DNA of 41,882 bases from contig CAMASN010000027.1 of the NCBI GenBank assembly GCA_945861025.1, forward strand, positions 1 to 41,882, given 5' to 3'. The DNA comes from Ferrithrix thermotolerans DSM 19514. Lineage in GTDB: Bacteria > Actinomycetota > Acidimicrobiia > Acidimicrobiales > Ilumatobacteraceae. Position numbers and translations under genes: made by a program. Shown here one piece after another: positions 2,315 through 10,744 of the stretch. Under the pieces are notes generated by a model that saw only the letters and a list, made by a program, of their open reading frames with translations, did no database searches and was not told the DNA's origin. Positions within the stretch are counted from its first letter, which is position 1, and each line of letters starts with the position of its first letter.

Positions 2315-3661
2315 ATGTCCGAAGCCGCATTCCCGTTTGCCGAACGCCCACTTCCAGATTGGTATGAAGACGCCAAGTTCGGAATCTTCATTCACTGGGG
2401 CCCGTACACCGTTCCGTGCTTCGCTCCAGTCGAGAACAACATGGGCGACCTCATGGCTGGCGACAACTGGACCGAGGCGTTCCGTTCGAGCCCGTACACC
2501 GAGTGGTATCTCAACTCGTGGGCGCTCGAGGGCAGCGCCACAGCCAAGCATCACGCCGAGGTCTATGGCGATCGCACCTATCAGAGTTTCGTCGAAGAAT
2601 TTCGCGAGCGCTCCAATGGCGTCGACGTAGCCGATTGGTCCGATCTGTTTCAGGCTTCCGGCGCGCGTTACGTGGTGCCCGTCACCAAGCATCACGATGG
2701 TTTCTTGATGTGGCAGAGCGAGCATGCCAACCCCAACCGCACCGACTGGATGGCCACGCGCGATCACGTGGGCGAACTGGCCGAAGCCGTGCGCGAGCGC
2801 GGCATGCGCTTCGGTGTGTACTACTCGGGCGGGCTCGACTGGACCTTCAGCGAGCCAGGCTTCGACAGCGTGATGGGCATGATCCAGAACATTCCCGTCA
2901 CTCCTGAGTACTGCGATTACGCCACGGCGCATGTGCATGAGCTCATCGAGCGCTATAGCCCGAGCCTGCTGTGGAACGACATTGCGTGGCCAATGACGCT
3001 CGACCCCAACGACGTGTTTTCGTATTACTACGACCGCGTTCCCGACGGCATCGTGAACGATCGTTGGAACATCATCGCGGTGCGTTCGGGCCTGCTGCAC
3101 GCCGACATCGCCACCCCCGAGTACTCGACCAAGGCCTCGGATGACCGCAAGTGGGAAGTGTGTCGCGGCGTTGGTCGTTCGTTCGCATACAACCGGATGG
3201 AGACCGAGGCAACGATGCCTTCGGTCGACGAACTGATCTGGATGCTGGTCGACATCGTGGCCCGCGGCGGCAACCTGTTGCTCAACGTGGGCCCAACCGC
3301 CGACGGTCAGATTCCTATGGCCCAAGCGTCGCGACTCGTCGCGCTGGGCTGGTGGCTCCGCGTTAATGGTGATGCCATCTACGGCACCCGCACATGGCGT
3401 ATCCAGACCGGGGTTACCGACGACGGTCGCGAGATCCGCTACTCCATGAACGGCGACACTGTGTATGCCTGCGTCGAGGGCGGACCCTCGGGCGAGCTTC
3501 GTCTGGCCGACGTGTCAGTGAGCGCCGGTTCGGTTGTGACCATGCTTGGCAACAGCCGCACCCTTCCGCATCGCGTTGATGGCAATGATCTGGTGATCAC
3601 GCTCGTCGATCACTTACCAGCGTCGCCAGCAACGGTGTTTGCGATTACCGGAGCGATCTAG
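2315..3661 (+). CDS. GH29 alpha-L-fucosidase
   Basis: The 448-residue protein matches glycoside hydrolase family 29, which releases terminal alpha-L-fucose from glycans by a retaining mechanism. The N-terminal hallmark WYEDAKFGIFIHWGPYTVP is at residues 16-34. KHHDGF (about 124-129) follows, then LLWNDIAWP with the expected nucleophile Asp near 222. The C-terminal 70 residues form a small beta domain. There is no signal peptide, so the enzyme should be cytosolic and act on imported oligosaccharides. No sugar transporter or other fucose gene is nearby. The stop codon overlaps the convergent dehydrogenase stop in CTAG at 3658-3661. Confidence 0.93.
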   Translation: MSEAAFPFAERPLPDWYEDAKFGIFIHWGPYTVPCFAPVENNMGDLMAGDNWTEAFRSSPYTEWYLNSWALEGSATAKHHAEVYGDRTYQSFVEEFRERSNGVDVADWSDLFQASGARYVVPVTKHHDGFLMWQSEHANPNRTDWMATRDHVGELAEAVRERGMRFGVYYSGGLDWTFSEPGFDSVMGMIQNIPVTPEYCDYATAHVHELIERYSPSLLWNDIAWPMTLDPNDVFSYYYDRVPDGIVNDRWNIIAVRSGLLHADIATPEYSTKASDDRKWEVCRGVGRSFAYNRMETEATMPSVDELIWMLVDIVARGGNLLLNVGPTADGQIPMAQASRLVALGWWLRVNGDAIYGTRTWRIQTGVTDDGREIRYSMNGDTVYACVEGGPSGELRLADVSVSAGSVVTMLGNSRTLPHRVDGNDLVITLVDHLPASPATVFAITGAI

Positions 3662-5145
3662 CGCGGAGCGCCCACAAAGCGTCCGGCCTGTGTCGGACGC
3701 TCGAGGTGAGTCTGCGCGTTGGCCACGGCGGCAATGCGGTCGATCATCTCGGGGGGAGCCGCCATGGCTTTGCCCGCAACAGTGTCGACATGCAGATACA
3801 TGTGCTCGCCCGTTGAGATGAGCGTGTGGTCGTCGGCGCGATGCATGCGATTGAACAGGTGCAACCGCTTTTCGTCGTAGCTGATGACCTGTGATGTCAC
3901 GTACACGACATCGCCAGCGTGCGACTGAGCCGCATAGGTGATGTGGCTCTCGACTGTGTAATAGCTGTGGCCGCCACGCAAGTATTCGGCGTCGACGCCG
4001 AGGTAGCGCAAGAAGGCATCGGCAGCATCGCCTGACATTTGCGCGTAGCGGCTGTCGTTGGTGTGGCCGTTGTAATCAACCCACTCGGTGGGAATGCGAA
4101 TCTCGTGCACCTTGAGTGGTTGAGCCGAGTCGTCGGCCACTGCTGGAGCAGGAGCGCGATCGAACAGCGCGCGTTCGAAGTCGGCGAGCACCTCGCCGGC
4201 GCCATAGCCAACAGTGCGCAGACCTTGCATGACCGACACGAGGCAGTCATCGCGAAGCTCTTCGAGTTCGCGGATGGTGCTTCCGTTTGCCTGGTCATCT
4301 GATTGGGCAACGATGGTGTCGATGAGCTCTTGATTGAGGTCGGGCACATCCATCAACTTGGTCCAAGGCCACTGCAGCGTGGGCCCGAACTGAGCAAGGA
4401 AATGCTGCATTCCGGCCTCGCCGCCAGCGATGCGGTATACGAGGAACGTGCCCATGAAACTCCAGCGCAGACCGGCGCCGAAACGGATTGCGTCGTCGAT
4501 CTGTTGAGCGGTGGCGATGCCATCGTTGATGAGCCACAGGGCCTCACGCCACACCGCTTCGAGCAGGCGATCGGCGATGAATCCATCGATCTCTTTGGTG
4601 AGCATCAGCGGACGCATACCAATGGACGTGTACACCTCGGCGGCGCGCTCTTTGGCAGCGGTAGATGTTGCGTCGCCGCCACAGATCTCGACCAGTGGAA
4701 GCAGATACACCGGGTTAAACGGATGGCCCACCACGAGACGCTCGGGGTGATGCATACCGATCTGAATCTGGGTGGGCAAGATGCCCGATGTCGATGAGCC
4801 GAAGACCACCGAAGGGTCGGCCACGGCACTGGCGCGCTGCAGAATCGACTGCTTGAGGTCGAGCCGCTCGGGTGCGCTTTCTTGCACGAAGTCGACGCCG
4901 ATAACGGCTTCTTCGGGAGTGGCCACGAAACGCAATGTGCCCTCAACCGGAAGTGGAGCCATCGTGAGCTTGGCGTAGGCGCGCCGCGCGTTGGCGATGA
5001 CAGCCTCGACCTTGCGTGGCGCTTCGGGATCTGGGTCGTACAAGATCACATCGACACCATTGAGCAAAAAGCGTGCGGCCCATCCGCCGCCAATGACGCC
5101 GCCACCCAACAGGCCAACGGTGTTGAGGCCGGGAATCGGGCTCAT
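3658..5145 (-). CDS. L-carnitine dehydrogenase fused to a hotdog thioesterase
   Basis: The 495-residue protein has an N-terminal 3-hydroxyacyl-CoA-dehydrogenase-like half (about 1-320) with the NAD motif GGGVIG at 14-19 and GHPFNPVYLLPLVEI. A C-terminal hotdog thioesterase (about 345-480) starts with WVDYNGHTNDSRY. This fusion is the known form of L-carnitine 3-dehydrogenase, in which the second half hydrolyses betainyl-CoA. The expected steps are carnitine + NAD+ to 3-dehydrocarnitine, then betainyl-CoA to glycine betaine + CoA. The ATG overlaps the preceding BKACE stop as ATGA (5142-5145), so the two are co-translated. A plain 3-hydroxybutyryl-CoA dehydrogenase is less likely given the fusion and neighbour. 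Confidence 0.9.
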   Translation of the reverse strand: MSPIPGLNTVGLLGGGVIGGGWAARFLLNGVDVILYDPDPEAPRKVEAVIANARRAYAKLTMAPLPVEGTLRFVATPEEAVIGVDFVQESAPERLDLKQSILQRASAVADPSVVFGSSTSGILPTQIQIGMHHPERLVVGHPFNPVYLLPLVEICGGDATSTAAKERAAEVYTSIGMRPLMLTKEIDGFIADRLLEAVWREALWLINDGIATAQQIDDAIRFGAGLRWSFMGTFLVYRIAGGEAGMQHFLAQFGPTLQWPWTKLMDVPDLNQELIDTIVAQSDDQANGSTIRELEELRDDCLVSVMQGLRTVGYGAGEVLADFERALFDRAPAPAVADDSAQPLKVHEIRIPTEWVDYNGHTNDSRYAQMSGDAADAFLRYLGVDAEYLRGGHSYYTVESHITYAAQSHAGDVVYVTSQVISYDEKRLHLFNRMHRADDHTLISTGEHMYLHVDTVAGKAMAAPPEMIDRIAAVANAQTHLERPTQAGRFVGAPR

Positions 5146-6035
5146 CGCTTCACCAGTTGCAGCTTGTCGCGCACGGCTTGCGCCGACATGATCTTGGCGT
5201 TCATGCCGCCCAAGATGTCTACGGCGCGGCTGACGAGCTCGGCGTTGGTGGCGAGGTGTCCAGCGCCGAGATAGAGGTTGTCCTCGAGCCCAACGCGCAC
5301 GTTACCGCCAGCAAGCGCTGCCATTGCGACATAGGGAATCTGCATACGGCCGATGGAGAACGCCGAGAAGACCGAGCCGGGAGGCAACAGGTTGACCATC
5401 GCCATCAACGAGATGACGTCGTCGGGGGCGCCGTACGCAATACCCATGCACAACTGCACCATCACGGGATCATCGAGCAAGCCGTCGCGGATCATCTCTT
5501 TGACCATCACGAGGTGTCCGGTGTCGAAGACTTCGAGCTCGGGGCGCACGCCGAGTGCTTGTACCTGGCGGGCCATTTCGCGCAGGATGCTTGGGGTGTT
5601 GACCATGATGTAGTCGCCACCCGAGGCGAAGTTCATCGTGCCGCAATCGAGCGTGCAGATTTCGGGTAGCAACGCACGCACATGCTTGAGGCGCTCGGTT
5701 GCGCCGGCCATGTCGGTGCCATCGGGGTTCGGCGGCAGGGGATTCTCGCCGGCTCCGAGCACGAGGTCGCCACCCATGCCTGCGGTGAGGTTGATCACAA
5801 CGTCTACATCGGCGGCGCGCACGCGCTCGACAACTTCGGCGTAGAGCTCGGTGTCGCGAACGCCTACGCCGGTCTCAGGGTTGCGAACGTGGATGTGTAC
5901 TACGGCTGCGCCAGCGCGAGCGGCATCGATGGCCGATTCGGCGATCTGCTGAGGAGTGACCGGCACATGTGGGCTCTTTGAGGTGGTGTCGCCTGCTCCG
6001 GTGATGGCACAGGTTACGAATACGTCCCAATTCAT
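5142..6035 (-). CDS. Beta-keto acid cleavage enzyme (BKACE, DUF849), probably 3-dehydrocarnitine-specific
   Basis: The 297-residue protein belongs to the zinc-dependent BKACE family. VVHIHVRNPETG supplies the H47-x-H49 metal pair, and ELEVFDTGHLVMVKE is a second family motif. BKACE enzymes condense a beta-keto acid with acetyl-CoA to give acetoacetate and a new acyl-CoA. Next to carnitine dehydrogenase the natural substrate is 3-dehydrocarnitine, giving acetoacetate and betainyl-CoA, which the fused thioesterase can hydrolyse. A Shine-Dalgarno GAGGA (minus strand, 6048-6044) sits 8 nt before the ATG at 6033-6035. The gene is divergent from the dioxygenase. Confidence 0.9.
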   Translation of the reverse strand: MNWDVFVTCAITGAGDTTSKSPHVPVTPQQIAESAIDAARAGAAVVHIHVRNPETGVGVRDTELYAEVVERVRAADVDVVINLTAGMGGDLVLGAGENPLPPNPDGTDMAGATERLKHVRALLPEICTLDCGTMNFASGGDYIMVNTPSILREMARQVQALGVRPELEVFDTGHLVMVKEMIRDGLLDDPVMVQLCMGIAYGAPDDVISLMAMVNLLPPGSVFSAFSIGRMQIPYVAMAALAGGNVRVGLEDNLYLGAGHLATNAELVSRAVDILGGMNAKIMSAQAVRDKLQLVKR

Positions 6036-6062
6036 TGTCTACGTCCTCATCGCTGATCTGGC

Positions 6063-6097
6063 CTGCGAACCTCCGCAGAGCGTGTCGAACATTACAC
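6063..6097. promoter_or_regulatory. Two inverted repeats in the divergent BKACE/dioxygenase promoter region
   Basis: CTGCG-N6-CGCAG lies at 6063-6078 and GTGT-N8-ACAC at 6082-6097. Both are 16-bp sites of operator size, in the 140-bp gap between divergent genes of one pathway. A possible -10 box TATGGT (6118-6123) faces the dioxygenase. No regulator gene is adjacent. The stems are short and may be chance. Confidence 0.25.
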
Positions 6098-6175
6098 CGA
6101 GCCAGAAAACGGCGCGCTATGGTCGCATCATCTGCACGCGTTCAGGCTCACTCGTTCATAGAGAAACGGTTCGGC

Positions 6176-7375
6176 ATGGCTCTCACACCTGACTTCGACA
6201 CCTATCCCATCGACTTCACGATCAGCGCGGCCACGGCCGAGCGAGGCGCGGTCCATGTCACGTGGTCCGACGGCCGGGTGAGTCGATTTCACAACATTTG
6301 GTTGCGCGATAACTGCCCTTGCGTTCAGTGCGTGCACCAGGTCACCAAAGAGCAGACCTTCGAACTGGTCACGGTGTCGCCCGACATTCATCCTGTAGCC
6401 GTGGCGGTTGCGGCCGATGGCTCGTTGTTGGTGCGGTGGTCCGATGGTGACCACGCCAGCGAGTTCCACACGGGTTGGCTGCGCTCCAATTGCTACAGCG
6501 CCGAGGCGCGTGCCGAGCGCGTTGTGCAGCGCACCACATGGGACTCAACCACCTTGAGCGAGCCCCCTACGTTTGATGGACCAGCCGTTCTGAGCGACGA
6601 CGCTGCGCTCTACGAGTGGCTGGTTGCGCTGCGCACCTATGGCGCCACCCGTCTGCGCAATGTGCCGTGCACCGACGAAGCAATCACTCATGTCATCGGC
6701 CGAATCGGTATTGCGCGCGACACCAACTTCGGTCTGTTCTGGGACGTGCGCAGCGAACCAAATCCAGTAACCAACGCGAACACGGCGTTGCCGTTGCCGC
6801 CCCATGTAGACCTGCCCACCCGCGAGTATCAGCCGGGTCTGCAGTTTCTGCACTGCATCGAGAACCAGGCCATTGGCGGCGACAGTATCTTGGTCGACGG
6901 CTTCCGTGTCGCCGAGTTGATGCGCGAGCAATACCCCAGCGAGTACCACACGCTCACCAGAACACCGTTCGACTGGGCCAACAGCGCGAAGGTCACCGAC
7001 TATCGCTGGCGGTCGCCCATCATCGTCACCGATGCGTCGGGCGCCGTCACCGAAATGCGTGTCGGCAACTGGCTACGAGCCCCGCTCGACCTTCCGTTTG
7101 AACAAGTCGAAGAGGCCTATGACGCGTATCGCCGCCTGTTCGAGATGACATATCGCGAAGACCTGCAGCTGCGGTCCCGGTTCGAGCCAGGCGATCTTGT
7201 GGCGTTCGATAACCGCCGCACATTGCACGCCCGTAGCGAGTTCACCGATGCTGGTGGTCCACGGCATCTTCGCGGTGGCTACACCGAACGCGATGACCTG
7301 CAGTCACGCATCCGGATGCTCGAGCGCGCCATGCGCGAGCGCCGTGTTGCGCTAGGCAACTCAACGCTGGGGTAG
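6176..7375 (+). CDS. Gamma-butyrobetaine dioxygenase-like Fe(II)/2-oxoglutarate enzyme
   Basis: From ATG 6176 the protein has 399 residues. An open extension upstream lacks family similarity and is left out. The N-terminal DUF971-type domain carries WLRDNCPCVQCVH, whose C47, C49 and C52, with His98 further on, fit the zinc site of gamma-butyrobetaine hydroxylase. The TauD-like core has FWDVRSEPNP, H210-x-D212 and distal H351 for iron, and PGLQFLHC. The expected reaction is gamma-butyrobetaine + 2-oxoglutarate + O2 to L-carnitine + succinate + CO2. Trimethyllysine hydroxylase is a close relative, so the substrate rests mainly on the neighbouring carnitine genes. Confidence 0.85.
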   Translation: MALTPDFDTYPIDFTISAATAERGAVHVTWSDGRVSRFHNIWLRDNCPCVQCVHQVTKEQTFELVTVSPDIHPVAVAVAADGSLLVRWSDGDHASEFHTGWLRSNCYSAEARAERVVQRTTWDSTTLSEPPTFDGPAVLSDDAALYEWLVALRTYGATRLRNVPCTDEAITHVIGRIGIARDTNFGLFWDVRSEPNPVTNANTALPLPPHVDLPTREYQPGLQFLHCIENQAIGGDSILVDGFRVAELMREQYPSEYHTLTRTPFDWANSAKVTDYRWRSPIIVTDASGAVTEMRVGNWLRAPLDLPFEQVEEAYDAYRRLFEMTYREDLQLRSRFEPGDLVAFDNRRTLHARSEFTDAGGPRHLRGGYTERDDLQSRIRMLERAMRERRVALGNSTLG

Positions 7376-8737
7376 CACCAAGCGCACGTTGGTGTCGATA
7401 TCTCGGCCCGCCATGTATTCGGCAGCCTTCGGTGTGCGAAAGCCGTAAGCAAGTTCGTGGTGCAAAGCGGCGAGGCCGCCCGCTGCTTCGTTGTGATCGA
7501 GCATCGTGCTCACGATCTCGTATGAGCCATCGGTGTGGCGCACAAGCTCAATGGCTCGGGTCTGCGATGGCCAATCGATAATCGACGACGTCGTGATTTC
7601 CCAGAAGCCACCGTTGGGTCCCGGGCGTGGTTCAATGCGGTTGAAGTGACGGTGTCCCACCAACCACGCGACCACACAGCTATGGCGATGAACCACGGCC
7701 AGCATGTCGGCGGCGAGGTGCCGGTCGGCGTTGTGGCCCCGCTCGTTGATCAATGTGTCGGCGCCGTGATGGCTCATCAAGATGGCCACACGACCCGGCT
7801 GCTGATCGACCTCGGCGAGTTGCCGTTCGAGCCACTCGAGTTGCTGTGTGCCGATGCTGCCTTGGTAGTCGCCCTCGGGGTGGTTGGTGTCGATCAAGAC
7901 CAACCGCACGTGCTCGGTGTCGATGATGGTGTCGGTTGAGTCAGCGCTCACGTTCTTGGCCGAGTAGCCCAATGCGCCGCGTGCGATGTGGGCTTCAATC
8001 CACTCGCGCTTGGTGATGGCGCGTCGGTCGGGATTCGCTGCGATGGGGTAGCTGGGGCCGCATGAGAACGCCTCGGGTTCATCGAGGAAGAGTGCCAACG
8101 GATTGTCGCTGGCAAAGCCGGTGGGGCGTTGCAGCGACTTGGTTGCGCCAACAGCGATGCGTTCGATCGCAGGGTTGTTCAGCGCGGTGCCCTGGCGCAT
8201 CAGGTCGTGATTACCAGGAACGCTGGTCCACGCAAGGCCGAGTCCGAGCGATGTGCACGCTGCGCTCACGCGAGCGATGAAGTCGGGTTCGGTGTCGTCG
8301 GGATTCCAAAACGGCCACGCTTCACTGAAGGCCCGAGTGATGGTGTCTTGTGCGCTGCCGACGGCGCTCAGCGCGGTGGTGCCGCCGGCCATCACCGTGA
8401 GATATGCGTCGAGTTCGTTGCGCTGGGCGTTGTCTATGTTGTCGCCCGTGGACACAACGAGATCGAATGGCCGATCAGATCCCCCAGCGCATGGGTTCTG
8501 GCGAATGCGCTCAACATGGGCGCGCAACGCCCACAAGGTGAGCGAATCGTATGGCCGATGCATATGTAGCAACGGCCGGAATACTGGATCGTGCGCCTCG
8601 AGCTCCACCCATTCGCCACGTGCCGGCGACGCTGCATCGAGTACGTGAGTGTCGGTGAGATGCACAAGGCTGAGCAGTGTCTCGCCGACACCGTTGTTCA
8701 CGCTGCCGCCGAGGTTGGTGCGGGTTGCTGTTGACAC
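7361..8737 (-). CDS. Calcineurin-like metallophosphoesterase
   Basis: The 458-residue protein shows all five metallophosphoesterase motifs: DTH at 29-31 (HLTDTHVLD), GDNIDN near 98-103, GNHD (VPGNHDLM), SHHGAD and GHRH (WLVGHRHFNRI). It should bind two metal ions and hydrolyse a phosphoester. It resembles a long actinobacterial subgroup (TIGR03767-like) of unknown substrate. The start is GTG at 8735-8737. No signal peptide is evident. Its 3' end overlaps the convergent dioxygenase by 15 bp. It lies between two genes of the carnitine route, but no chemical step there needs a phosphatase. Confidence 0.85.
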   Translation of the reverse strand: MSTATRTNLGGSVNNGVGETLLSLVHLTDTHVLDAASPARGEWVELEAHDPVFRPLLHMHRPYDSLTLWALRAHVERIRQNPCAGGSDRPFDLVVSTGDNIDNAQRNELDAYLTVMAGGTTALSAVGSAQDTITRAFSEAWPFWNPDDTEPDFIARVSAACTSLGLGLAWTSVPGNHDLMRQGTALNNPAIERIAVGATKSLQRPTGFASDNPLALFLDEPEAFSCGPSYPIAANPDRRAITKREWIEAHIARGALGYSAKNVSADSTDTIIDTEHVRLVLIDTNHPEGDYQGSIGTQQLEWLERQLAEVDQQPGRVAILMSHHGADTLINERGHNADRHLAADMLAVVHRHSCVVAWLVGHRHFNRIEPRPGPNGGFWEITTSSIIDWPSQTRAIELVRHTDGSYEIVSTMLDHNEAAGGLAALHHELAYGFRTPKAAEYMAGRDIDTNVRLVLPQR

Positions 8738-8761
8738 TTTCGTGACCTTAGCGTCCGCGCC

Positions 8762-8767
8762 TATGTT
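8762..8767 (+). promoter_or_regulatory. -10 box for acetoacetyl-CoA synthetase
   Basis: TATGTT ends 6 nt before the GTG at 8774, the spacing expected for a leaderless transcript. No convincing -35 box lies at 17 nt. TTGACA at 8731 is too far upstream. Confidence 0.4.
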
Positions 8768-8773
8768 GTCGCC

Positions 8774-10744
8774 GTGACAGATCCCTTAGCCAAGGTTGCA
8801 TTGTGGAGCCCACCACGTGAGCGCGCCCTCGACACCAACATCGCTCGGTTCGCGGAGGCGGCAAACATCAACCCGCTTGACTACTCGGCGCTGCATCGCT
8901 GGTCTGTTGAATCGCCTGATGAGTTCTGGCGCGCGATTTGGAAAGAGTGCGACATCATCGGCGACCCAGGTACTGAAGTGTTGCGACGAGATCAGAATCT
9001 CGCTGCGTGTCGGTTCTTCCCCAAGGCGCGTCTCAACGTTGCAGAGAACCTGTTGGCGCATCTCCCCAATGACCAACCAGCGATTGTTGCTTATAACGAA
9101 GCAGGTCTTGATCGATCGTTGTCGTCGATCGAACTGCGCGCCGCAGTAGCGCAGCTTGCGCAAGCGTTGCGTGCTGCTGGCGTGGTTGCTGGCGATCGCA
9201 TCGCGGCGTTTGTGCCTAACGGGCCCGAGGCGATCATCGCGATGTTGGCCGGTGCCTCCATCGGCGCCACGTTTGCTTCAGCGTCACCCGATTTCGGCGT
9301 GCCCGCCGTGCTCGATCGTTTCGGTCAGATCGAGCCAGCGGTGCTCATCGGCTGCCTCGAGTACACCTACGCCGGCAAGCACATCGACTGTCGTGACAAG
9401 CTCGCCGAGATCGCAGACGGCCTGCCGACAGCCCGTGTGAAAGTCTGTTTTGGTGGTGTCAGCGATGGCCCCGAGGGCTTTATGCAATGGAGCGAAGTGC
9501 TTCACGCCAACGTTGGTGCTGCGCTCGCATTCGAGCAGTTGCCGTTCGATCACCCGTGGTACGTGTTGTTCAGCTCGGGCACTACCGGCAAGCCGAAGTG
9601 CATCGTGCATCGCGCGGGTGGTGTGTTGTTGATGCATGCCAAGGAACATCGTTTGCATTGCGACATTCGGCCCGGCGATGTGGTCACCTACTACACAACC
9701 ACCGGGTGGATGATGTGGAATTGGTTGGCTTCGGTGCTCGGCACGGGAGCAACCGTTGTGTTGTTCGACGGTTCGCCGATGTACCCAACGCAGCATCAAC
9801 TCTTCGCCATGGCCGAACAACAGCGCATCACATTGTTGGGCGTGTCGGCCAAGTTCATCGATGGCTTGGCCAACAGCGAACTCGACATTGCCGGTACTCA
9901 CGATCTGTCGGCATTGCGAACTATCTGCTCCACCGGTTCGCCGTTGTCGCCACGCGGTTTCGACTACGTGTATTCATCAATCAAGGTCGATGTACACCTT
10001 GCCTCAATCTCGGGCGGCACCGACCTTTGCGCGAGCTTCGTTGGCGGCGTGCCCACGCTGCCGGTGTACTCGGGTGAAATCCAAGCGCCGTTGTTAGGCA
10101 TGGCCGTTGAGTTCGTCGACGAGTCGGCGCATGCGCTCGGCGTGGGCGATGGCCCCGGCGAGTTGGTGTGCGCGCAACCATTTCCATCTCAGCCATTGGG
10201 TCTGTGGAACGACGACCCATACGGGCCCGACGGCCGCAGCTACCGGGCCACCTATTACGACCGGTTTGAGGGTAAGTGGGCACACGGTGACTTTGCTTCG
10301 TGGACCGTGAATGGCGGCGCAATTATCCACGGACGCTCCGACGCAACGTTGAACCCCGGGGGAGTGCGCATCGGCACCGCCGACATCTACCGCGTGGTCG
10401 ATGCAATGCCAGAGGTTGCCGAATCAATCGCCTTCGGCCAGACGGTAGACAACGATGTGAAGATCGTCCTTGCGGTCAAGCTCGCACCGGGATTGGCGCT
10501 CGACGATGCCCTGACCGCGCGCATCAAATCAACCATCCGCGCAGCGCTCAGCCCGCGCCATGTTCCTGGGGTCATCGTGGCCGTGCCGGACCTGCCGCGT
10601 ACGTTCAGCGGCAAGTTGGTTGAGCTTGCCGTGGCCGATGCGGTGAACGGTCGAGTGGTGCGTAACCGCGGTTCGATCGTGAACCCTGAAGCTCTCGACG
10701 AGATTGCGGCACATCCAGCGCTGCGCCGAGACTCCAACGGCTGA
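8774..10744 (+). CDS. Acetoacetyl-CoA synthetase
   Basis: The 656-residue protein has the size and order of acetoacetate-CoA ligase, an ANL adenylating enzyme. Visible are an N-terminal ACAS-type domain, the AMP-binding loop FSSGTTGKPKCIVH, TTTGWMMWNWL, and the C-terminal TFSGKLVELAV with the catalytic Lys near 614. It activates acetoacetate with ATP and CoA. In this context it would recapture the acetoacetate released by the BKACE enzyme as acetoacetyl-CoA for thiolysis. It starts at GTG 8774 with a -10 box 6 nt upstream and no Shine-Dalgarno. It ends flush against the convergent GGDEF-EAL gene, with no gap. Confidence 0.95.
   Translation: MTDPLAKVALWSPPRERALDTNIARFAEAANINPLDYSALHRWSVESPDEFWRAIWKECDIIGDPGTEVLRRDQNLAACRFFPKARLNVAENLLAHLPNDQPAIVAYNEAGLDRSLSSIELRAAVAQLAQALRAAGVVAGDRIAAFVPNGPEAIIAMLAGASIGATFASASPDFGVPAVLDRFGQIEPAVLIGCLEYTYAGKHIDCRDKLAEIADGLPTARVKVCFGGVSDGPEGFMQWSEVLHANVGAALAFEQLPFDHPWYVLFSSGTTGKPKCIVHRAGGVLLMHAKEHRLHCDIRPGDVVTYYTTTGWMMWNWLASVLGTGATVVLFDGSPMYPTQHQLFAMAEQQRITLLGVSAKFIDGLANSELDIAGTHDLSALRTICSTGSPLSPRGFDYVYSSIKVDVHLASISGGTDLCASFVGGVPTLPVYSGEIQAPLLGMAVEFVDESAHALGVGDGPGELVCAQPFPSQPLGLWNDDPYGPDGRSYRATYYDRFEGKWAHGDFASWTVNGGAIIHGRSDATLNPGGVRIGTADIYRVVDAMPEVAESIAFGQTVDNDVKIVLAVKLAPGLALDDALTARIKSTIRAALSPRHVPGVIVAVPDLPRTFSGKLVELAVADAVNGRVVRNRGSIVNPEALDEIAAHPALRRDSNG

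Follow-up and report, generated by a model that had tools for sequence, protein, structure and literature searches.

A predicted gamma-butyrobetaine and carnitine catabolic island with a nearby acetoacetate ligase in a draft genome of the Ilumatobacteraceae

The window, i.e. the whole stretch of 41,882 nucleotides analysed here, lies on contig 27 (CAMASN010000027.1) of the draft genome of Ferrithrix thermotolerans DSM 19514 (GCA_945861025.1; 2.89 Mb, 95.6% complete), assigned to the actinobacterial family Ilumatobacteraceae. It carries an island of genes related to gamma-butyrobetaine (GBB) and carnitine metabolism. On the reverse strand, a carnitine 3-dehydrogenase is fused to a hot-dog (4HBT_2) thioesterase (3658–5145, 495 amino acids), the latter predicted to act on betainyl-coenzyme A (betainyl-CoA). 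The gene next to it, on the same strand, encodes a beta-keto acid cleavage enzyme (BKACE; 5142–6035, 297 amino acids, PF05853), predicted to cleave 3-dehydrocarnitine with acetyl-CoA. A divergent intergenic region of 140 bases (6036–6175), presumably the control region of both sides, separates BKACE from a forward-strand Fe(II)/2-oxoglutarate dioxygenase gene resembling GBB dioxygenase (6176–7375, 399 amino acids; PF02668 and PF06155). This is followed by a metallophosphoesterase-like gene on the reverse strand (7361–8737, 458 amino acids, TIGR03767-like) and a forward-strand gene for an AMP-forming acetoacetate–CoA ligase with a GTG start (8774–10744, 656 amino acids).

An initial annotation had described four neighbouring genes, namely the fused gene, BKACE, the dioxygenase and the ligase. 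All four are open frames at these coordinates and match the named families. The fusion within a single frame, the 4-bp ATGA overlap between BKACE and the fused gene (5145–5142) and the divergent dioxygenase are seen directly in the sequence. The genes are indeed close together, but they are not contiguous, as the metallophosphoesterase-like gene was overlooked. Because of this intervening opposite-strand gene and the resulting strand order (-, -, +, -, +), the four cannot be one operon. The gene order recurs in relatives of the same genus and the arrangement is therefore beyond chance. Gene content, fusion, order and conservation are observed as such; every reaction and substrate given below is read from the protein families.

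For comparison, fused-gene neighbourhoods were counted in the best 80 of at least 482 confirmed loci, 53 of which have at least 3 kb on both sides of the fused gene. In addition, 150 genomes of the family, nearly all drafts, and a sample of 396 genomes of the phylum were surveyed (G numbers denote family genomes, L numbers loci and C numbers contigs of the window's own genome). Some open reading frames at the loci of relatives and on other contigs come from a simple script, among which false frames occur.

The fused protein reaches 697.6 bits with NF005716, ‘carnitine 3-dehydrogenase’ (cut-off 592), over residues 9–494 of 495, and the Pfam domains 3HCDH_N (PF02737), 3HCDH (PF00725) and 4HBT_2 (PF13279) lie in one frame. 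With three domains in one frame and a model match over nearly the whole length, the fusion is real. The nearest named match of the window, 99% identical in the fused protein, is a contig of 12,026 bases from a metagenome-assembled genome titled ‘Acidimicrobiaceae bacterium’. BKACE matches PF05853 with 320 bits (gathering score 24.8 bits). With the four BKACE models listed in NCBIfam, which describe enzymes for other substrates, it stayed below the respective cut-offs. A BKACE gene is no more than 8 kb away from the fused gene in 67 of the 80 loci, and in 47 of the 53 that have both flanks. Judged by record title, the 80 loci belong mostly to Actinomycetota, Alphaproteobacteria and Gammaproteobacteria, with one from Chloroflexi. 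Within the family, 42 of 150 genomes contain a fused gene above the cut-off. They represent six genera: the window's own genus (g1) and g4, g6, g11, g19 and g15. The proposed conversion of carnitine through 3-dehydrocarnitine and betainyl-CoA to glycine betaine is supported by this linkage and by a scheme in print for other bacteria, and the carnitine-to-betaine core is a known kind of gene set. The fused protein would oxidize carnitine and hydrolyse betainyl-CoA, with 3-dehydrocarnitine as the probable substrate of BKACE.

The dioxygenase, searched as 6179–7375 without the initiator Met, contains GBBH-like_N and TauD domains. Several observations weigh against assigning it to GBB. With the GBB dioxygenase model TIGR02409 it scores 349.1 bits, below the curated cut-off of 414.75, which no protein in the 150 family genomes passes. 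The model NF049936 for TmpA, a 2-trimethylaminoethylphosphonate dioxygenase, gives a similar score (304.1 bits, cut-off 400), and the best solved relative is TmpA (214 bits), followed by human GBB dioxygenase (176 bits). In a FastTree tree of 40 sequences, chosen from 54 by leaving out L144, fragments and near-duplicates from the own genus (14 in all), the window dioxygenase falls in a clade of 11 sequences with a support of 0.99, together with its own-genus copies, G038, G054, L051 (Oceanospirillaceae), L142 (Burkholderia arboris) and L143 (Caballeronia). Most of the scored members also remain under the TIGR02409 cut-off (L051 403.5, L142 394.4, L003 345.6, G054 245 and G038 235 bits); L143 passes it with 425.4 bits. 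The genomic setting of the clade is consistent with a role in carnitine metabolism: in G038 and G054 the genes are operonic in the order dioxygenase, BKACE and unfused dehydrogenase, in L051 the dioxygenase lies 1 kb from the fused gene, and in L142 it lies 1.1 kb from the fused gene and 2.6 kb from BKACE. Outside the clade are L108 and L147, which are over the TmpA cut-off, and the trimethyllysine type. L147 is of the TmpA type with 596 bits, yet just passes TIGR02409 (417.0 bits), so the TIGR02409 cut-off alone cannot part the two types. An identity as TmpA was rejected for the window dioxygenase, since its score is too low and the proteins over the TmpA cut-off fall elsewhere in the tree. 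An identity as trimethyllysine dioxygenase was likewise rejected, given 197 bits against a cut-off of 268.3 and no diagnostic Asp.

In an alignment, the iron triad His-X-Asp...His and the 2-oxoglutarate-binding Arg are kept, with residue roles taken from PMC7764450. The aromatic cage for the trimethylammonium group includes Phe184, Phe188 and Tyr201 in psBBOX (PMC4736438). Mapped by alignment and residue spacing, the window dioxygenase has a Phe, a Trp and a C-terminal Tyr, but Asn at the place of Tyr201. This Asn is found in the window and in all own-genus sequences covering the site (eight distinct records), as well as in G038 but not in G054; it adds to the points against the assignment and leaves some doubt on the affinity or exact substrate of the predicted enzyme. 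At the position of Asn191 in human GBB dioxygenase (human numbering), the window and own-genus dioxygenases carry Thr or Ser. Since the proteins of B. arboris, Caballeronia and L051 share a Ser here, this residue alone is no argument against GBB dioxygenase.

The low TIGR02409 score, the nearly equal TmpA score and the Tyr-to-Asn change could also mean that the enzyme acts on another quaternary amine, such as delta-valerobetaine or a phosphonate analogue, and that carnitine is the true entry into the pathway. Mammalian GBB dioxygenase also accepts delta-valerobetaine, as described in PMC11773067. However, the window dioxygenase clusters with enzymes whose genes, in several lineages, adjoin those for carnitine dehydrogenase and BKACE, and neither L108 and L147 nor the trimethyllysine type belong to this group. 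Moreover, many relatives have a CoA-dependent module in place of the dioxygenase; the crotonobetainyl-CoA-hydratase-like protein of this module suggests that carnitine is formed. A different substrate is unlikely. Butyrobetaine hydroxylation, as initially annotated, thus draws support from linkage and phylogeny while missing the curated cut-off. The protein most likely works like a GBB dioxygenase, and is called GBB-dioxygenase-like rather than filed as a member of that family.

The alternative module is widespread. In g4, an acyl-CoA dehydrogenase sits with an ADP-forming-type CoA ligase and the crotonobetainyl-CoA-hydratase-like protein. Acyl-CoA dehydrogenases at least 50% identical to the one of g4 occur within 8 kb of the fused gene in 47 of 80 loci, with relatives of the CoA ligase nearby in 33 and of the hydratase in 30. 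The proteins of this module score under their curated cut-offs (304 bits against 500 for the hydratase-like protein). Dioxygenases at least 40% identical to that of the window are found in six of 80 loci, five of them own-genus or matching it and one from Oceanospirillaceae (L051). The two front ends were not found together in any of the 80 loci, and neither is present in 17 of the 53 loci with both flanks. The hypergeometric value for this exclusion (0.004) is of little statistical weight, as five of the six dioxygenase loci represent one genus. Taken together, this suggests an exchangeable front end, i.e. a dioxygenase or a CoA-dependent module. Many relatives would form carnitine from butyrobetaine or crotonobetaine via CoA thioesters, and the window's genus would do so by oxygen-dependent hydroxylation.

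The ligase is clearly identified, with 828 bits for NF002937 (cut-off 639) and 779.6 bits for TIGR01217 (cut-off 520.9). Taking E <= 1e-150 as presence, it was found in 92 of 150 family genomes: 35 of the 42 with the fused gene and 57 of the 108 without (Fisher p = 0.0007, with no correction for relatedness). Its position is more telling: in g1, g4 and g6, three of the six fused-gene genera, it stands close to the cluster and runs divergently from BKACE. The order in g1 is PhoH, GGDEF/EAL, ligase, metallophosphoesterase, dioxygenase, BKACE and fused gene, and is seen in seven of nine genomes, i.e. the window, G021, G068, G091, G102 and G113 as far as the contigs reach, and G080 across two contig ends. 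All five informative fused-gene genomes of g4 (G003, G030, G072, G106 and G137) have the ligase on the far side of BKACE in divergent orientation, with about 2 kb between ligase and BKACE in G003 and the ligase end cut off by the contig in G137. It is linked in G117 (g4) too, where contig ends interrupt the fused gene. All eight informative genomes of g6 share this divergent arrangement, with the DNA read for G031 and G128 and the linkage taken from coordinates for G005, G047, G085, G096, G118 and G138. Contigs ending at or just past BKACE are uninformative in this respect (G046, G084 and G145, and, judged from coordinates only, G060, G061 and G095).

Against the ligase as a fixed part of the island stand several results. 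The metallophosphoesterase-like gene separates ligase and dioxygenase; it matches PF00149 with 25.6 bits and TIGR03767 with 229 bits (below the cut-off of 330.75), overlaps the 3' end of the dioxygenase gene and adjoins the ligase both in the window and in six relatives of the same genus. In the genomes of g11 (eight), g19 (five) and g15 (one), either the ligase was not found or it is on a different contig. In two of the nine own-genus genomes, G040 and G055, it was not found among the seven best candidates scored per genome; as at most seven were scored, ‘not found’ is no proof of absence. In G055 the ligase block is gone and the PhoH gene directly follows the dioxygenase. A 3-oxoacid CoA-transferase subunit was detected in G055 only of 13 genomes tested (254 bits, above 128.5), G040 being among those in which it was not found. 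By sequence look, without a family search, the G055 subunit has an apparent partner subunit alongside, among leucine-pathway-like genes. At seven loci from the genomes of g11, g19 and g15 (L119, L171, L172, L173, L174, L182 and L183), the ligase was also not seen in the several kb beyond BKACE.

Alternatively, the ligase could be a general ketone-body or leucine-pathway gene that is nearby through shared ancestry of the neighbourhood and not through function. The opposite-strand gene in the window, the missing linkage in g11, g19 and g15 and the 57 genomes with a ligase and no fused gene are in line with this. On the other hand, the linkage is kept in three genera despite different intervening genes (the dioxygenase and metallophosphoesterase in g1; no intervening gene at those g4 and g6 loci whose DNA was read, apart from the stretch in G003), and the g4 and g6 ligases are only ~54% identical to that of the window. 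A given gene falls within 10 kb by chance in 0.5–1.25% of cases in genomes of 4–1.6 Mb, and the CoA-transferase is present in the one own-genus genome visibly without the ligase block. Chance adjacency was accordingly set aside as unlikely across three genera, although a neighbourhood inherited as such could still account for the linkage. A purely ancestral association is rather unlikely. The expected co-occurrence of the ligase with the other three genes holds as linkage in three genera and fails to appear in two of nine own-genus genomes. Re-activation of acetoacetate beside the pathway is real but not obligatory, and the acetoacetate exit seems exchangeable, as suggested by the ligase and, in one genome, the CoA-transferase.

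Some further arrangements were seen at this position. In G040 (L106:4116-6139(+)), genes of the enoyl-CoA hydratase and AMP-forming CoA-ligase families replace the metallophosphoesterase and acetoacetate ligase after the dioxygenase. In G079 (L169:5151-7909(+)) and G007 (L170:1467-4452(+)), a ~40% identical acetoacetate-ligase-like gene is followed by a carnitine-dehydrogenase-like gene (38–40%), hinting at further pairing of ligase and dehydrogenase.

With these parts, the island can with good confidence be regarded as an aerobic catabolic module for GBB and carnitine. The dioxygenase would hydroxylate butyrobetaine to carnitine, which the first half of the fused protein would oxidize to 3-dehydrocarnitine with NAD+. 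BKACE would convert 3-dehydrocarnitine and acetyl-CoA to betainyl-CoA and acetoacetate, and the second half of the fused protein would hydrolyse betainyl-CoA to glycine betaine. The nearby ligase would activate acetoacetate to acetoacetyl-CoA at the expense of ATP, yielding AMP, and a thiolase, presumably encoded elsewhere, would split acetoacetyl-CoA into two acetyl-CoA. As BKACE spends one acetyl-CoA and two are recovered, carnitine would yield one net acetyl-CoA besides glycine betaine, going by the enzyme families.

The initial annotation called the island self-contained and supplied with every step, which is too strong. Uptake, acetoacetyl-CoA thiolysis and the steps after betaine must be encoded elsewhere, and other contigs carry genes for a transporter, a betaine-aldehyde dehydrogenase and demethylation enzymes. 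It was right that the cluster itself holds no transporter or regulator. A ProVWX/ChoXWV-type ATP-binding cassette (ABC) transporter is encoded on C22 (OpuAC domain 135 bits; ATP-binding protein 353.9, above 326.6; permease 431.5, above 363), in the same stretch as a betaine-aldehyde dehydrogenase (801 bits, above 593) and a homocysteine methyltransferase-family gene. The genome yielded no BCCT transporter. Three dimethylglycine/sarcosine-dehydrogenase-type proteins are encoded on C13, C17 and C54, adjoined by MttB-superfamily genes on C17 and C54. The C17 cluster (L188:765-9677(+)) also contains a methyltetrahydrofolate methyltransferase and a RACo-type corrinoid activator, as well as two frames that resemble electron-transfer flavoprotein subunits by sequence look only. 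The MttB-superfamily protein on C17 has no in-frame stop, and the organism also has oxygen-dependent enzymes. The carnitine cluster of G128 (g6) is bordered at its opposite end by a betaine-homocysteine methyltransferase gene (501 bits, above 338).

Genes on other contigs could thus import glycine betaine or choline, form betaine from betaine aldehyde and demethylate betaine. Glycine betaine seems to be a hub that the organism is probably able to demethylate. The route might instead be mainly osmoprotective, with glycine betaine kept as a compatible solute, and the ABC transporter near a betaine-aldehyde dehydrogenase would fit this. The demethylation genes speak against it: MttB-superfamily genes occur twice next to dimethylglycine-dehydrogenase-type genes, in one case together with the methyltransferase, corrinoid activator and likely electron-transfer genes. 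The ligase linkage also speaks against it, as it points to carbon recovery. A mainly osmoprotective role is thus unlikely. Given the transporter, betaine-aldehyde dehydrogenase and demethylation genes elsewhere in the genome, catabolism is at least as likely as osmoprotection.

Comparable systems have been described in other bacteria. In Sinorhizobium meliloti, BKACE chemistry stands between the dehydrogenase and thioesterase steps. A single S. meliloti protein combines these two functions, as in the window, according to a citation in PMC12482172, which also treats the carnitine-to-betaine reactions of Pseudomonas aeruginosa. Compared with the published description of S. meliloti, the window adds the divergent butyrobetaine-type dioxygenase and the nearby acetoacetate ligase. 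An Arctic SAR11 island encodes a GBB dioxygenase, carnitine dehydrogenase, BKACE, an acyl-CoA thioesterase and a glycine betaine ABC transporter (PMC12421898). It shares the logic of butyrobetaine to betaine within one island, but has a separate thioesterase gene, and the transporter and a choline dehydrogenase lie inside the island; no acetoacetate ligase is named for SAR11 in the portions of PMC12421898 consulted. The B. arboris megaplasmid (L142) likewise has BKACE, the fused gene and the related dioxygenase within 4.7 kb, at 45–57% identity, but no acetoacetate ligase match in its 17-kb stretch. The loci of g4, g6, g11 and many Proteobacteria share BKACE and the fused gene, and those of g4 and g6 the divergent ligase too, with the acyl-CoA dehydrogenase, ADP-forming-type CoA ligase and crotonobetainyl-CoA-hydratase-like protein instead of a dioxygenase. 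A second thioesterase is a feature of many actinobacterial CoA-module clusters. Carnitine use in Acidimicrobiia is not itself new, since a sponge-symbiont study assigned some bins of this class to a guild of carnitine metabolisers (PMC5649159). The island extends a known pathway to one actinobacterial family and suggests two exchangeable parts, the front end and the acetoacetate exit.

A possible upper route forms a separate lead (TRIMETHYLLYSINE), as the genome encodes two further dioxygenase-family proteins besides that of the window. The first, on C10, passes the trimethyllysine (TML) dioxygenase model TIGR02410 (294.4 bits, cut-off 268.3). Its gene (L102:7884-8990(-)) is convergent with an aldehyde dehydrogenase gene (L102:6273-7853(+)), whose product scores 433 bits with the betaine-aldehyde dehydrogenase model, below the cut-off of 668.6. 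In human TMLH, Asp231, at the place where GBB dioxygenase has Asn191, binds the alpha-ammonium group (PMC7764450). In the alignment, this diagnostic Asp is present in all 21 sequences of the C10 group, which also keeps the iron triad and the Arg and has a Phe-Trp-Tyr cage where that of human TMLH is Tyr-Trp-Tyr; the substrate-site Asn is kept in 20 of the 21. TIGR02410 is passed in 27 of 150 family genomes and, across the phylum, in four of 396 sampled genomes, all from the window's family and one being the window's own. Carnitine dehydrogenase is present in 23 of the 27 genomes with a TML-type gene and in 34 of the 123 without (p = 4e-8, with no correction for relatedness). Inside g11 this association is gone (6/9 against 2/3, counted by hand).

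The C10 dioxygenase, a threonine-aldolase-family enzyme, the aldehyde dehydrogenase and the window dioxygenase would lead to carnitine by the eukaryotic reaction sequence, after which the other genes of the window would degrade carnitine to glycine betaine. The nutrient would be free trimethyllysine released by protein breakdown. The C10 parts and the window could in this way cover every step, with the aldolase as a guess. Seven own-genus genomes have the TML-type dioxygenase, and the aldehyde dehydrogenase is convergent at all five own-genus loci fetched (~1.4 kb off in one) and absent at the 16 loci of other genera. In the window's own genome, the single clear member of the threonine-aldolase family is on C1, not beside C10. 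In g11, a threonine-aldolase-family gene lies 1.3–5.5 kb from the TML-type dioxygenase in six of eight loci; its neighbourhood of cytochrome P450 and flavoenzyme genes does not fit this route. None of the 21 loci has both aldehyde dehydrogenase and aldolase, and no locus with all parts from trimethyllysine to betaine was seen. A plasmid search with the TML-type protein gave nothing above 34% identity among the matches listed (30 of 34). No report of a prokaryotic trimethyllysine dioxygenase appears in the titles and abstract openings of the literature searched, a statement limited to these, and only seemingly unrelated papers were met on trimethyllysine in Actinobacteria or carnitine in Ilumatobacter. 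That the island forms the lower part of a trimethyllysine breakdown route in prokaryotes is put forward tentatively, as a possible reading rather than a favoured one.

The second further dioxygenase is of the GBBH/TmpA family and lies on C44 (L103:7781-8950(+)), followed by a weak HD-domain protein (8950-9522(+); 22.5 bits, cut-off 22). The layout resembles a Phyllobacterium pair annotated as gamma-butyrobetaine dioxygenase and HD-domain protein, and the C44 pair is possibly another entry to glycine betaine. TmpA/TmpB is at most a possible identity for this pair: TmpA is the best model but gives 239.8 bits against 400, and the tree does not join the protein to those over the cut-off.

Within the region equivalent to 6036–6175, aligned for eight own-genus sequences, an inverted repeat TTCCG-N5-CGGAA is clear in G021 and G055 and degenerate in the window, and is a possible candidate operator. 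On the other side of the island, an alpha-L-fucosidase gene (2315–3661, forward strand) is convergent with the fused gene, overlapping its 3' end by four bases, and such a gene is also found near the cluster in several own-genus relatives.

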